Below, one piece after another: positions 1-64,000 of a DNA stretch of 64,000 nt. The translations under genes and the position numbers were made by a program. The notes beneath the pieces were generated by a model, which did not search any database, had not been told where the DNA came from, and saw only the letters and a program-made list of their open reading frames with translations. This DNA comes from Candidatus Hoaglandella endobia (GTDB lineage Bacteria; Pseudomonadota; Gammaproteobacteria; Enterobacterales; Enterobacteriaceae), in the NCBI RefSeq assembly GCF_900044015.1, contig NZ_LN999835.1:460365-524364 (forward strand). Reading direction: 5' to 3'. Each line of letters begins with the position of its first letter. The first letter of the stretch is position 1.

Positions 1-549
1 TTCAACCGCTACCGCATCAAGTATTGGTAAATTATACGCATCAATAATGATATTGCCGTTGTCAGTAGTAACCCCCTGACGGTAGACAGGCATACCACCT
101 AAGCGTATTAGTTCACTGGCTACCCAAGCCCTGGCCATGGGAATCACCTCTATTGGAAGGGGAAAGGTACCCAGAACATCTACTAGTTTGCTGGCATCGA
201 CAATGCAAATAAATTTACGAGCAACGGCGGCAATAATTTTTTCGCGAGTCAGTGCTGCGCCTCCACCTTTAATCATCTGCATACGACCGTTTATCTCATC
301 AGCGCCGTCCACGTAAATATCCAGTGAATCAACGTCATTAAGCTCGAATAGCGGAATACCTAAGCTTTTAAGCTTTGCAGAAGAAGCCTCAGAGCTGGAA
401 ACTACTCCTTTAATTTGATGTTTGACAGAGCCTAGCGCGTCAATAAAATACGCAGTAGTAGTGCCAGTTCCCACCCCTACGATAGTGCCATAACGGACAT
501 ATTTTAGCGCAGCCCAGCCAACTGTTTTTTTTAGTTCATCTTGTGTCAT
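1..549 (-). CDS. rpiA: Ribose-5-phosphate isomerase A, 3' end beyond window
   Basis: Interconverts ribose 5-phosphate and ribulose 5-phosphate in the non-oxidative pentose phosphate pathway. The reading frame is open from the ATG at 549-547 to base 1, giving 183 residues; the family is about 219, so roughly the last 36 codons are outside. The family motifs are visible: the GVGTGTTA phosphate loop, the YVDGADEIN stretch with catalytic Asp/Glu, and KGGGAALTREK. It begins MTQDELKK as in E. coli. In E. coli rpiA lies near fbaA and pgk with argP, yggE, argO and mscS between, so this is a compacted version of that neighbourhood. Very sure of identity. Confidence 0.96.
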   Translation of the reverse strand, partial: MTQDELKKTVGWAALKYVRYGTIVGVGTGTTTAYFIDALGSVKHQIKGVVSSSEASSAKLKSLGIPLFELNDVDSLDIYVDGADEINGRMQMIKGGGAALTREKIIAAVARKFICIVDASKLVDVLGTFPLPIEVIPMARAWVASELIRLGGMPVYRQGVTTDNGNIIIDAYNLPILDAVAVE

Positions 550-724
550 GATATGTTTTCTGCTTATATGTTACTAAGTATTGGCGCAAGTATAAATTAA
601 TCTATGCAGCATTTTCGTTAAAATCACTATAATCGCGGTTTTTAAACTCCGGTAGGACCGATACTGTACGTAATAAATAGGGTAATCGGGCAGAGATCCG
701 ATTGCAGTTTACAGGGGAAAATGT

Positions 725-775
725 ATGAAACGCATGGATTAGCGATAAGCCTTAGTTAAAGCTATTTATTAACCA
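725..775 (+). pseudogene. argP: Possible remnant of the argP start
   Basis: Downstream of an AGGGG ribosome-binding-like stretch, the frame from the ATG at 725 reads M-K-R-x-D-stop-R-stop-A-L-x-K-A-I. E. coli ArgP starts M-K-R-P-D-Y-R and soon has A-L-D-A-V-I. E. coli carries argP at this place, divergent from rpiA. The match is short and remembered, so this is a weak call. The rest of the 550-853 gap shows no recognisable gene. Confidence 0.4.
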
Positions 776-777
776 AT

Positions 778-812
778 AAAAAATCATTTTGGCCTTCATA
801 TAAAAGACCAAA
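778..812 (-). terminator. Rho-independent terminator of fbaA
   Basis: On the minus strand a 7-bp stem (TTTGGTC paired with GGCCAAA, one G-T pair) with an 11-base loop is followed by ATGATTTTTT. It lies about 40 bases past the fbaA stop and is placed to end the pgk-fbaA transcript. Confidence 0.6.
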
Positions 813-853
813 GATAATCATAAAATAATTATTTATTTAGTTGTAGTAGCCGA

Positions 854-61004: not shown

Positions 61005-61065
61005 AACGATACATTACCACCGTCGTATGGTCCAGCCGGTAATAATATCGCTTATTCTACTTTGG
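61005..61065 (+). pseudogene. nsrR: Possible nsrR 3' remnant
   Basis: E. coli has nsrR between purA and rnr. Near 61015-61065 the frame reads Y-H-R-R-M-V-Q-P-V-I-I-S-L-I-L-L, against Y-T-L-A-D-L-V-E-E-N-Q-P-L-Y-K-L-L-L at the NsrR C terminus. The match is loose, so this is tentative. Confidence 0.35.
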
Positions 61066-61087
61066 AAATTTTGGAGGTAGCCTAATA

Positions 61088-63415
61088 ATGTCCCAAGATC
61101 CCTTTATAGAAAGGGAAGCAGAAAAATATACGCTCCCAGTTCCCAGCCGGGAATTTATCCTCAATCATTTAGCTAAACGGGAAAATCCCGTCAGCCGTAA
61201 GGAATTGGCACAAGAACTAGACATTAGCGGCGAAGACCAGTTGGAAGGTTTACGTCGCCGTTTACGAGCCATGGAAAGAGATGGGCAATTAATTTATACC
61301 AGTCGGCAGTGTTATGTACTGCCGAAAATGCGCGATTTACTGCGTGGTACGGTCATTGGCCATCGTGATGGTTTTGGTTTTCTACGCATAGAAGGCAGTA
61401 AGAACGATTATTATTTATCTATTGAACAAATGAACCTAGCTATTCACGGTGATATCGTTTTGGCTCATACTCATGGCTCGGACCGTAAAGGACGCCGAGA
61501 GGCACGCATTATTCGGGTTCTTGTGCCGCAAACCAGCAAAATCGTAGGCCATTTTTTTACAGCTGCCGGTAGCGCTTTTGTGGTCCCTGAAGATAGCCGC
61601 CTAAGTTTTGATATTTTTATTCCGCCTGAAGCAACCCAGGGGGCCTATATGGGATTTGTCGTAGTGGTAGAACTGATCCAGCGTCCGACCAGGCGCACTA
61701 AAGCTATCGGTAAAGTAGTAGAAGTGCTTGGCAATAATATAGATACTAATATGGTGATAAATATTGCGCTACGCACCCACAATATTCCCTACGTTTGGCC
61801 ACAGGAAGTCGAACAGCAATTAGCTAGTTTACAAAAAGAAATACCGAAGATAACCAAGAGTGAGCGCGTCGATTTACGTACGCTCCCCCTTATGACCATT
61901 GATGGCGAAGATGCGCTCGATTTTGATGACGCGATATACTGTGAGAAAAACCGCAGCGGTGGTTGGCGTCTATGGGTAGCTATTGCTGATGTTAGCTATT
62001 ATGTACGCTCTAATACGCCGTTAGACCAGGAAGCTAGCCGACGTGCCATGTCTGTTTATTTCCCATCGCAGGTGGTGATACCGATGTTGCCTGAGGTGCT
62101 ATCCAACGACTTATGTTCGCTAAATCCGCAGGTTGATAGACTTTGTATGGTTTGCGAGATGACTATCTCTGCCCATGGTAGGCTTTCTTCTTACAAATTT
62201 TATGAAGCGGTGATTAATTCCCATGCTCGACTTACTTATAGTCGAGTTTGGGATATTTTGCAGGGCAAAAATGATCTGTGCGCTTATGAAGCTTCAATTG
62301 AAGCTTCAATTATTAAAGCGCTAAAGCAACTGCATGAGATGTACAAAATCCTGAAACAGGATAGGCTACGGCGCGGTGGTATCTGTTTTGAAACCGAGGA
62401 AGCAAAATTTATTTTCAATACAGAGCGACGCATTGAGCGTATTGAGTCTGTGAAAAGCAATGATGCCCATAGAATAATAGAGGAGTGTATGATTCTCGCA
62501 AATATTGCCGCGGCCCGTTTTGTAGAGAAAAAAAGAGAGCCAGCGCTTTATCGCGTGCACGACCGGCCAAGTAACAATCATCTCATGTCATTGCGCACAG
62601 TATTGGGCCAATTAGGTCTTTCTTTGGACGGAGGTGACAAACCTGAGCCAAAAGATTATGCAAAGATAATGAATATTATAGCCGGCCGGTCAGATTATGA
62701 GATGCTGCAAACCATGCTGCTACGATCGATGAAACAGGCAATTTATGATCCTGAAAATCGCGGCCACTTTGGATTAGCATTACAGGTATATGGGCATTTT
62801 ACCTCCCCGATACGTCGGTATCCAGATTTAGTATTGCACCGGGCTATTAAATATCTGCTCTATCGAAAAAATCATAAAAATAATAATGAAGTAGAAGTTC
62901 GCGCTACCCCAAATGGAGGCTGGCATTACGAATTAGAAGAGCTATTACAGCTTGGCCAGCAATGTTCTCTTAGTGAGCGCCGTGCAGATGACGCGACCAG
63001 GGATGTATCGGATTGGCTGAAATGCGACTTTATGCAAGATTATCTTGGTAAGATATTTAGCGGTATTATCACTAGCGTCACAAGTTTCGGGTTCTTTGTA
63101 CGCCTCAATAAGCTATTTATCGACGGGCTAGTGCATGTTTCCTCGCTGGATAATGACTATTACCGCTATGACAACATCGGCCAGCGGATCATCGGTGAAT
63201 CTAGTGGAAGAGTTTATCAGCTGGGAGATGCGGTGGTAATCCGTATCGAGGCAGTACATATGGATGAACGCAAAATAGATTTTTTTGTAATTTCAGATCG
63301 CTTTCAGCAACGCTGTTTCGGTAAGACCATACGCCAGCATCAGCAGCAAAATACACACAGCGGCAATAAAGATAAAAAAAATGTCGCGGCGACAACATCA
63401 GCCTACCAACGTTGA
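61088..63415 (+). CDS. rnr: Ribonuclease R
   Basis: Processive 3'-5' exoribonuclease that degrades structured RNA. It is 775 residues (E. coli 813). Order: N-terminal helix-turn-helix (to about 90), cold-shock domains, the RNB catalytic domain with DGEDALDFDDAIYCEK (four acidic metal ligands near 279-288), the FTSPIRRYPDLVLHR signature and the C-terminal S1 domain. The basic tail is about 40 residues shorter. GGAGGT lies before the ATG. Confidence 0.97.
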   Translation: MSQDPFIEREAEKYTLPVPSREFILNHLAKRENPVSRKELAQELDISGEDQLEGLRRRLRAMERDGQLIYTSRQCYVLPKMRDLLRGTVIGHRDGFGFLRIEGSKNDYYLSIEQMNLAIHGDIVLAHTHGSDRKGRREARIIRVLVPQTSKIVGHFFTAAGSAFVVPEDSRLSFDIFIPPEATQGAYMGFVVVVELIQRPTRRTKAIGKVVEVLGNNIDTNMVINIALRTHNIPYVWPQEVEQQLASLQKEIPKITKSERVDLRTLPLMTIDGEDALDFDDAIYCEKNRSGGWRLWVAIADVSYYVRSNTPLDQEASRRAMSVYFPSQVVIPMLPEVLSNDLCSLNPQVDRLCMVCEMTISAHGRLSSYKFYEAVINSHARLTYSRVWDILQGKNDLCAYEASIEASIIKALKQLHEMYKILKQDRLRRGGICFETEEAKFIFNTERRIERIESVKSNDAHRIIEECMILANIAAARFVEKKREPALYRVHDRPSNNHLMSLRTVLGQLGLSLDGGDKPEPKDYAKIMNIIAGRSDYEMLQTMLLRSMKQAIYDPENRGHFGLALQVYGHFTSPIRRYPDLVLHRAIKYLLYRKNHKNNNEVEVRATPNGGWHYELEELLQLGQQCSLSERRADDATRDVSDWLKCDFMQDYLGKIFSGIITSVTSFGFFVRLNKLFIDGLVHVSSLDNDYYRYDNIGQRIIGESSGRVYQLGDAVVIRIEAVHMDERKIDFFVISDRFQQRCFGKTIRQHQQQNTHSGNKDKKNVAATTSAYQR

Positions 63416-63584
63416 ATCTGGTCGCAAGCAAAGAAAATGATAAGCTCGTTTTCTCTTTCGGCCAACTTAGCTAGTATGCGGGGCACGGTCAAACTGCTAC
63501 AGCAGTCAAACCTGTTGCCGAGAATTAGTTACTGTTAGTAACATTCGCAAAATAGCCGTTCAGTACTGTTCACAATAAAAAAAT

Positions 63585-64000
63585 ATGAGCGAAATAATTT
63601 ACGGTATTCATGCTATACAGGCTTTGCTGGAACGCGATCAGCAATGTTTTCTAGATATTTATCTTTTAAAAGGGCGTAAAGATCGCCGCCTGCAGCTACT
63701 AATCAAACAATTAGAGCAGTTGGGTATTGTTATCAAAATAACTAGTCGTCAGTGGCTAGATAAGAAGGTTAAGGGTGCAGTTCATCAGGGTATCATAGCC
63801 CGAGTACAGTCAAGGAAGCAGTATCAGGAGAATGATTTACTTCCTCTGCTGATTACGCGACAGGCCGCACCACTACTGCTAGTACTTGACGGCATCACTG
63901 ATCCCCATAACCTAGGCGCATGTTTGCGTTGCGCTGATGCTGCCGGGGTACATGCCGTTATAGTACCCAATGACAGATCAGCTCAATTGAATGCCACCAC
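63585..64000 (+). CDS. rlmB: 23S rRNA (guanosine-2'-O)-methyltransferase RlmB, 3' end beyond window
   Basis: SPOUT-family enzyme methylating G2251 of 23S rRNA. The ATG at 63585 opens a frame running to the window end (138 codons; the E. coli protein has 243). It begins MSEIIYGIHAIQALLER and contains GAVHQGIIARV, the LDGITDPHNLGACLRCADAAG motif split over 106-126, and VPNDRSAQLNATT-like residues at the edge. Follows rnr as in E. coli. Confidence 0.95.
   Translation, partial: MSEIIYGIHAIQALLERDQQCFLDIYLLKGRKDRRLQLLIKQLEQLGIVIKITSRQWLDKKVKGAVHQGIIARVQSRKQYQENDLLPLLITRQAAPLLLVLDGITDPHNLGACLRCADAAGVHAVIVPNDRSAQLNAT

Follow-up and report, generated by a model that had tools for sequence, protein, structure and literature searches.

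In the reduced genomes of insect endosymbionts, the presence of fading remnants of lost genes in the long, A+T-rich spacers is established (PMC3899985), and the longer spacers of one Buchnera strain are described as containing remnants of the genes lost in that strain. For Moranella, the genome report states that the spacers show no traces of homology to coding regions (PMC3620526). Earlier reports also describe a shortened dnaX gene in Moranella (PMC3620526) and in Serratia symbiotica (PMC5013485), with mention of a non-functional part of dnaX in Moranella (PMC3620526), propose slippage at a single homopolymer in Blochmannia (PMC3017870), and show that recombination in Salmonella between the tuf copies, which flank the origin in inverse orientation, can flip the segment between them (PMC8262849). 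Here we analyze the intergenic gaps in a 64-kb stretch of the genome of Candidatus (Ca.) Hoaglandella endobia (hereinafter, the window; C1:460365-524364 in a three-contig assembly of 636,713 bp), for which a first-pass annotation had named at least ten legible fossils of the genes that E. coli carries at the same places and on the expected strand, namely epd, ppiB, the 3' part of dnaX, apt, rsmG, crr, rsmC, yheO, tuf and nnr. Four of the ten (dnaX 3', nnr, rsmC and tuf) match better than chance, each in the gap and on the strand where it was expected; yheO is suggestive, crr gives one weak hint, and epd, apt, rsmG and ppiB fail.

Ca. Hoaglandella endobia is a mealybug symbiont with a chromosome of 628,221 bp. 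In an mnmG tree, its genome groups among the Sodalis-type symbionts, with Ca. Gullanella (support 97/76), and the genome is likely to be that of a reduced, Sodalis-allied insect symbiont. The tested gaps are very probably sites of gene loss in this reduced genome, with four of the ten genes leaving a readable remnant, and the losses likely represent ordinary mutational decay after relaxed selection. In this scenario, selection would be relaxed once a gene becomes dispensable, and stop codons, frameshifts, A+T-biased substitutions and deletions would then erase the gene while the flanking order is kept. Genes that died later, or that lost only one end, such as dnaX, would stay readable, and the gene dying between fusA and secE would likely be a redundant tuf copy left at a tufA/tufB inversion junction.

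Readable remnants in the gaps

The window contains 36 intergenic gaps of at least 60 bp, for a total of 10,586 bp (the intact hha and hfq genes, recognized later, are still included), with a GC content of 0.15-0.50 that is below 0.40 in 32 of the 36. Protein comparisons employed a frameshift-tolerant local aligner written for this analysis, in three forms: a ranking in which 269 E. coli proteins were run against each gap in both orientations (538 tests, each with 40 shuffles), an orthologue test of the relatives' proteins against 1000 dinucleotide shuffles per gap, and a banded test that confined the match to where its spacing from the flanking gene would place it (2000 shuffles). At the DNA level, the expected genes from relatives were compared with 1000 shuffles of each gap, and the gaps were aligned with the corresponding sites of G004, a nearer-ancestor reference with a chromosome of 4,709,528 bp that we take to be Sodalis praecaptivus (37 comparisons for 27 gaps, 300 shuffles; the site DNA test). 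Anchored or banded DNA alignments were also made at the flanks, with at most 14 comparators per site, those for rsmG being mostly non-Sodalis; a cross-site control of this test was discarded as unfair, A+T-rich comparators scoring high anywhere. The cross-gene DNA control was a 301-gene library (256 frames from relatives) that contains homologues of the tested genes: three of tuf, three of dnaX, two of rsmC, and one each of nnr, ppiB, apt, rsmG and yheO. Proteins below the identity limits were dropped from the orthologue sets (for example, the gapA matches for epd), and rsmG copies were restricted to a chosen list. The apt gap was trimmed before hha in the site, DNA, anchored and library tests and was left untrimmed in the orthologue protein test.

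The expected gene ranked first among the 538 tests for dnaX, nnr and rsmC, third for ppiB and 11th for yheO, followed by crr (97), epd (104), rsmG (114), tuf (182) and apt (420). When the 269 E. coli proteins were searched against the 36 gaps with tblastn, the only remnants that stood out were dnaX and nnr, next to the intact hha and hfq.

The intact dnaX frame aligns through its residues 1-369 to positions 1-367 of the 655-position PRK07994 model, and the tau-specific part downstream has decayed (Table 1). This tail scores 111 in the orthologue protein test, compared with a shuffle maximum of 50, and 339 in the DNA test, compared with 220; the banded protein p is 0.0005, and the alignment of the gap with the dnaX-ybaB site of G004 reaches 381, compared with a shuffle maximum of 143. 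Because three-frame translation finds stop codons in all frames of the tail, single-site slippage would not be expected to restore tau in this genome.

For nnr, the protein score is 78 against a shuffle maximum of 54, the banded protein p is 0.0005, and the DNA score of 263 (p=0.002) was surpassed by one of the 1000 shuffles, at 265. Both the dnaX tail and nnr exceed every unrelated gene of the library. The rsmC remnant, with a protein score of 68 (shuffle maximum 50) and the same banded p of 0.0005, is weak at the DNA level (206, shuffle maximum 195; anchored p=0.028). Numerous stops in the three-frame translations of the rsmC and nnr gaps indicate that the reading frames are destroyed. Together, the four remnants span about 1.35 kb, or ~13% of the gap DNA. 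Against shuffled gaps and other proteins, the comparison that the first-pass annotation had proposed, dnaX 3', nnr and rsmC thus pass at the protein level and tuf at the DNA level only; the rest do not pass firmly.

Table 1. Remnants, intact genes and candidate features in the gaps (window coordinates)
Feature	Coordinates	Strand	Evidence
dnaX, intact 376-codon N-terminal frame (gamma-like)	14891..16021	-	NCBIfam PRK07994, 9.4e-212
dnaX 3' (tau-specific) part, decayed, following the intact frame	14346..14631	-	Protein and DNA tests
nnr remnant, collinear blocks at residues about 158-182, 360-389 and 451-481	51125..51562	+	Protein, blocks, DNA
rsmC remnant, collinear blocks at residues 40-51, 119-141 and 302-323	27473..27825	+	Mainly protein level
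Remnant of second tuf copy (gene nucleotides about 832-1060), between fusA and secE	36069..36345	+	DNA only
Possible yheO tail (residues 216-237), spaced from tusD as expected	31644..31709	+	Suggestive only
Possible 5' part of crr, adjoining ptsI	19225..19501	-	One weak hint
Leader conserved at cysS/ppiB, including no more than about 5 ppiB codons	6648..6756	.	DNA match to G004
hha-like gene, intact, 67 aa, within the putative apt gap	16333..16536	+	Open frame; NCBIfam Hha, 4.5e-40
hfq, 77 codons (102 in E. coli)	56769..57002	+	Open frame; 91% identity over residues 1-70

Could these four matches be chance alignments of A+T-rich DNA? The A+T-rich genes of endosymbionts do score high against unrelated gaps at the DNA level, the tuf alignment is rich in gaps, and rsmC is not outstanding in the DNA library. 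Nevertheless, dnaX 3', nnr and rsmC have protein scores that none of the 1000 dinucleotide shuffles reaches, the nnr and rsmC blocks are collinear on the expected strand, and the intact tuf matched by the remnant has 50% GC and is not A+T-rich, so that chance is extremely unlikely. Just as improbable is the retention of these segments as functional elements, either regulatory DNA or small proteins: some gap DNA is indeed conserved without coding, for example upstream of rpiA, purA and hflK, but in the dnaX, rsmC and nnr gaps each of the three frames on the strand of the gene is interrupted by stops, and the remnants match gene interiors or 3' parts rather than promoters.

A tuf copy probably lost at an inversion junction

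The remnant between fusA and secE was recognized through the genome's own intact tuf (DNA score 262; shuffle maximum 194; next-best comparator 172), with 161 of the 224 aligned positions identical and many gaps in the alignment. The best score in the 301-gene library, with its three other tuf genes, is 208 at this site, which also aligns to both tuf copies of G004 (p=0.003 and 0.02, 300 shuffles).

Ca. Hoaglandella has a single intact tuf, located after a tRNA Thr-Tyr-Gly-Thr cluster and followed by tRNA-Met and rpoD, whereas the junction reads fusA-[tuf remnant]-secE (window 36041-36419 and L201). In the ancestral order, represented by G004 (L127, L142), fusA-tuf on the forward strand and tuf-secE on the reverse strand flank the chromosome start, where mnmG sits. 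Ca. Gullanella (L224, L232) carries fusA-tuf-secE together with tRNAs-tuf-rpsJ-rplC, with both tuf genes intact, as a tuf-tuf inversion would be expected to produce. Ca. Hoaglandella likewise has both joins of a tufA/tufB inversion: secE follows fusA across the tuf site, and the tRNA(Thr,Tyr,Gly,Thr)-tuf unit borders a different segment. In G007 (L245, L262), a very A+T-rich genome (599,419-bp contig, 27% GC at the fusA-secE locus), fusA adjoins secE without tuf between them, and tRNAs-tuf is found elsewhere. A tuf gene lies beside fusA in 11 of the 11 other genomes compared; Ca. Doolittlea lacks tuf beside fusA, yet without this inversion, and has tRNAs-tuf-secE instead.

Because G007 shows it too, the junction shared by Ca. 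Hoaglandella and Ca. Gullanella is weak evidence of common descent. The joining of fusA to secE in Ca. Gullanella (with tuf) and in G007 (without it) suggests repeated tuf-tuf inversion followed by loss of the junction copy. We lean towards the view that the Ca. Hoaglandella gap is the scar of such an inversion caught in the midst of erasure, in which case the genomes would form a series of stages, from the ancestral G004 through Ca. Gullanella, inverted with both copies intact, and Ca. Hoaglandella, with the junction copy dying, to G007, where it is gone; in both inverted genomes with one tuf, it is the copy between fusA and secE that would have died. The literature search yielded no report of this scar, with the 2016 paper on mealybug gamma-symbionts, which may describe it, lying outside the search. 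The case shows that a genome's own paralogue can expose a remnant that protein searches miss, and the loss of one tuf copy is a testable statement on translation in this symbiont.

Ancestral gene order and the gaps without a firm remnant

An NCBIfam family was obtained for all 37 intact window frames queried, and the remaining intact frames were named by E. coli or G004 matches and gene order; the expected E. coli neighbors were read from MG1655 stretches. Window positions 4069-16670 are collinear with G004 3,372,213-3,415,416, and each other gene block of the searched window parts has one main place in G004 (window 38001-47499 was outside the search). Nine of the ten claimed lost genes (ppiB, dnaX 3', apt, rsmC, yheO, nnr, rsmG, crr and tuf) lie beside the same flanks in G004, the exception being epd. 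From these comparisons, gene order appears to be inherited in blocks, with genes vanished from their places, and to this extent the gaps do follow the E. coli order, as originally claimed. However, E. coli is only a rough guide to the ancestral order and not the ancestor, because epd was not found in the Sodalis-type genomes, the tuf site stems from a tuf-tuf inversion, and the 'apt' gap carries an intact hha.

The epd fossil is unsupported in all the tests (p=0.54 protein, 0.35 banded protein, 0.89 DNA, 0.50 anchored DNA). Among 13 genomes, epd was found in G009, G012 and G048 only, and it was not found in any of the nine Sodalis-type genomes (G004, G040, G041, G042, G043, G045, G046, G047 and G050; some are drafts). 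These genomes and Ca. Hoaglandella have only gapA-like epd matches, at 38-41% identity, and the frames that G004 carries upstream of pgk bear no relation to the E. coli set, with no epd among them. It is thus unlikely that a recent fossil of epd lies next to pgk. The tests for apt are null as well (p=0.48 protein, 0.57 banded protein, 0.33 DNA, 0.053 anchored DNA), leaving this candidate unsupported, and the gap carries an intact hha whose product is 75% identical to E. coli Hha over 67 aa. The rsmG fossil is likewise unsupported (p=0.053 protein, 0.97 banded protein, 0.15 DNA, 0.63 anchored DNA).

For ppiB, the p values are 0.019 for protein, with the opposite strand scoring higher, 0.17 for banded protein, 0.059 for DNA and 0.49 for anchored DNA, which leaves the fossil unsupported. 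Next to cysS, DNA conserved with G004 scores 193 compared with a shuffle maximum of 150 (n=1000; p=0.001 anchored at cysS), but this is mostly a leader shared with cysS and not a demonstrated fossil, and its alignment conflicts with a 12-residue match to E. coli ppiB at 6719-6754. A yheO tail remnant is suggested by protein p values of 0.036 (orthologue) and 0.015 (banded), next to 0.48 for site DNA, 0.43 for DNA and 0.089 for anchored DNA. The crr remnant is weak, with a single hint in five tests (banded DNA p=0.037; protein 0.41, banded protein 0.96, site DNA 0.11, DNA 0.43); the values for both yheO and crr are uncorrected for ten tests.

A burst of very recent gene loss, with all ten gaps being readable fossils of the E. 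coli neighbor, could draw on the ranking, where E. coli proteins alone bring three genes to the first place and ppiB and yheO to the third and 11th. The other five, however, rank between 97th and 420th, and this proposal has to contend with the failure to find epd in the nine Sodalis-type genomes and the intact hha in the 'apt' gap. Furthermore, a whole-genome search produced no epd, ppiB, apt, crr, rsmC or yheO match inside the window (outside it, there was only a gapA-like match and a weak match to a methyltransferase domain), whereas the pseudogenes of ppiB, crr, rsmC and yheO in a louse Sodalis are readable. The reading of all ten gaps as fossils from such a burst is thus very unlikely.

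Relative order of the losses

Of the four readable genes, three survive intact in Ca. Gullanella or Ca. Doolittlea (the dnaX tail in both, rsmC in Ca. Doolittlea, the second tuf in Ca. Gullanella), and nnr persists in Ca. Doolittlea as a 31-residue fragment. None of the six unreadable genes is intact in the examined loci of these two genomes, and five are also not intact genome-wide (rsmG was assessed in the fetched loci only); ppiB is represented in Ca. Doolittlea by a pseudogene piece. The difference, 3/4 compared with 0/6, is associated with a one-sided Fisher p=0.033, for ten genes only. In a decay simulation with eight genes, the protein test recovered, out of 25 remnants, 13 to 25 when 0.3 substitutions per site had accumulated, 0 to 8 at 0.6, at most one at 0.9 and none at 1.2. 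Given these detection limits, an unreadable gap likely reflects older decay or a clean deletion and a readable one a later loss, which would give a relative order but no date.

The notion that the window records the functions lost last survives only in this weaker form: that readable means lost later is plausible and fits the relatives, for ten genes only. That the remnants attest to recent gene death rather than to an ancient minimal genome does not follow, with ~13% of the gap DNA in remnants and few genes detectable at 0.6 substitutions per site.

Several points weigh against gradual decay as the source of the gaps and their remnants. No firm pass was obtained for six of the ten named genes, for which clean deletion would look the same as decay in place. 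Besides age, the length and conservation of a gene and the amount of it that remains also influence its readability. The rsmC DNA score is equalled or exceeded by seven of the 301 library genes, and A+T-rich comparators inflate such cross-gene controls. For tuf, the protein tests are negative (orthologue p=0.80; banded p=0.77 and 0.32), and so are the DNA tests anchored at fusA and secE (p=0.955 and 0.45); the anchored tests permitted limited deletion only (50-60%), and their failure would follow if ~830 bp of the gene start were gone.

Other contents of the gaps

Non-coding conserved DNA is found upstream of rpiA, purA and hflK, between argU and folD, and in the rplJ and rpoB leaders. Window positions 557-744, which run from upstream of rpiA as far as the initial codons of the lost argP, have a DNA score of 272 compared with a shuffle maximum of 132 (n=300), and could be either a kept control region of rpiA or the start of an argP fossil. 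The conserved DNA upstream of rpiA, hflK and purA and in the cysS/ppiB leader is more simply viewed as regulatory than as fossil. Among ten extra genes in the anchored test, recR (p=0.033) and aroB (0.034) have low uncorrected values, and cysK, zipA, dam, purE, nsrR and dinD have p=0.27 or higher; hflX (p=0.001) and yjeT (0.003) passed but were rejected, their alignments lying mostly in the hflK and purA leaders. Alignment with the G004 sites yielded nothing for the pgk-argU, lpxH-icd, ptsH-ligA, rpe-aroK, yicC-glyV and other gaps. The gap at 16670-17191, upstream of mnmG and at the site of oriC in E. coli, is 80% A+T and has no DNA match to the G004 sites on both sides; DnaA boxes were not searched for.

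A monomeric NADP isocitrate dehydrogenase (window 7801-10047) does not occur in this region of E. coli and is likely ancestral in this lineage, since there is a DNA match at the same G004 site. A YdeE-like major facilitator superfamily transporter (30206-31435) adjoins metG, an adjacency found also in G004 and not in E. coli. In ligA (22278-24110, 610 aa) and metG (28223-30025, 600 aa), the ends of the family models are unmatched, the last part being gone. This shortening resembles that of other genes in reduced symbionts, among which dnaX and metG, and in S. symbiotica also rnr, are described as shortened (PMC5013485, PMC3620526).

Comparison with other reduced genomes

Reading fossils by eye in a reduced genome can be trusted only within limits, as ten were named and four were left after the controls, and the expectation must come from a free-living close relative, not from E. 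coli. Within these limits, the four remnants likely reflect ordinary gradual gene decay, a known phenomenon, rather than something new. As in the reduced endosymbionts described earlier (PMC3899985), the spacers of Ca. Hoaglandella appear to be sites of gene loss in which the remnants fade. Unlike the Moranella spacers as reported (PMC3620526), they retain four traceable remnants, one of these only via the genome's own paralogue. Shortened dnaX is common to Ca. Hoaglandella and, in the accounts cited above, Moranella and S. symbiotica; in Ca. Hoaglandella, the dead tail can be aligned with dnaX from relatives and none of its frames is free of stops, such that slippage at a single homopolymer, as proposed for Blochmannia, would not rescue it, and the loss of the tau part is a testable statement on replication in this symbiont. 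The tuf junction appears to involve the same type of recombination as the tuf-tuf inversions of Salmonella (PMC8262849), with the difference that, in Ca. Hoaglandella, one junction copy would have decayed after the inversion.

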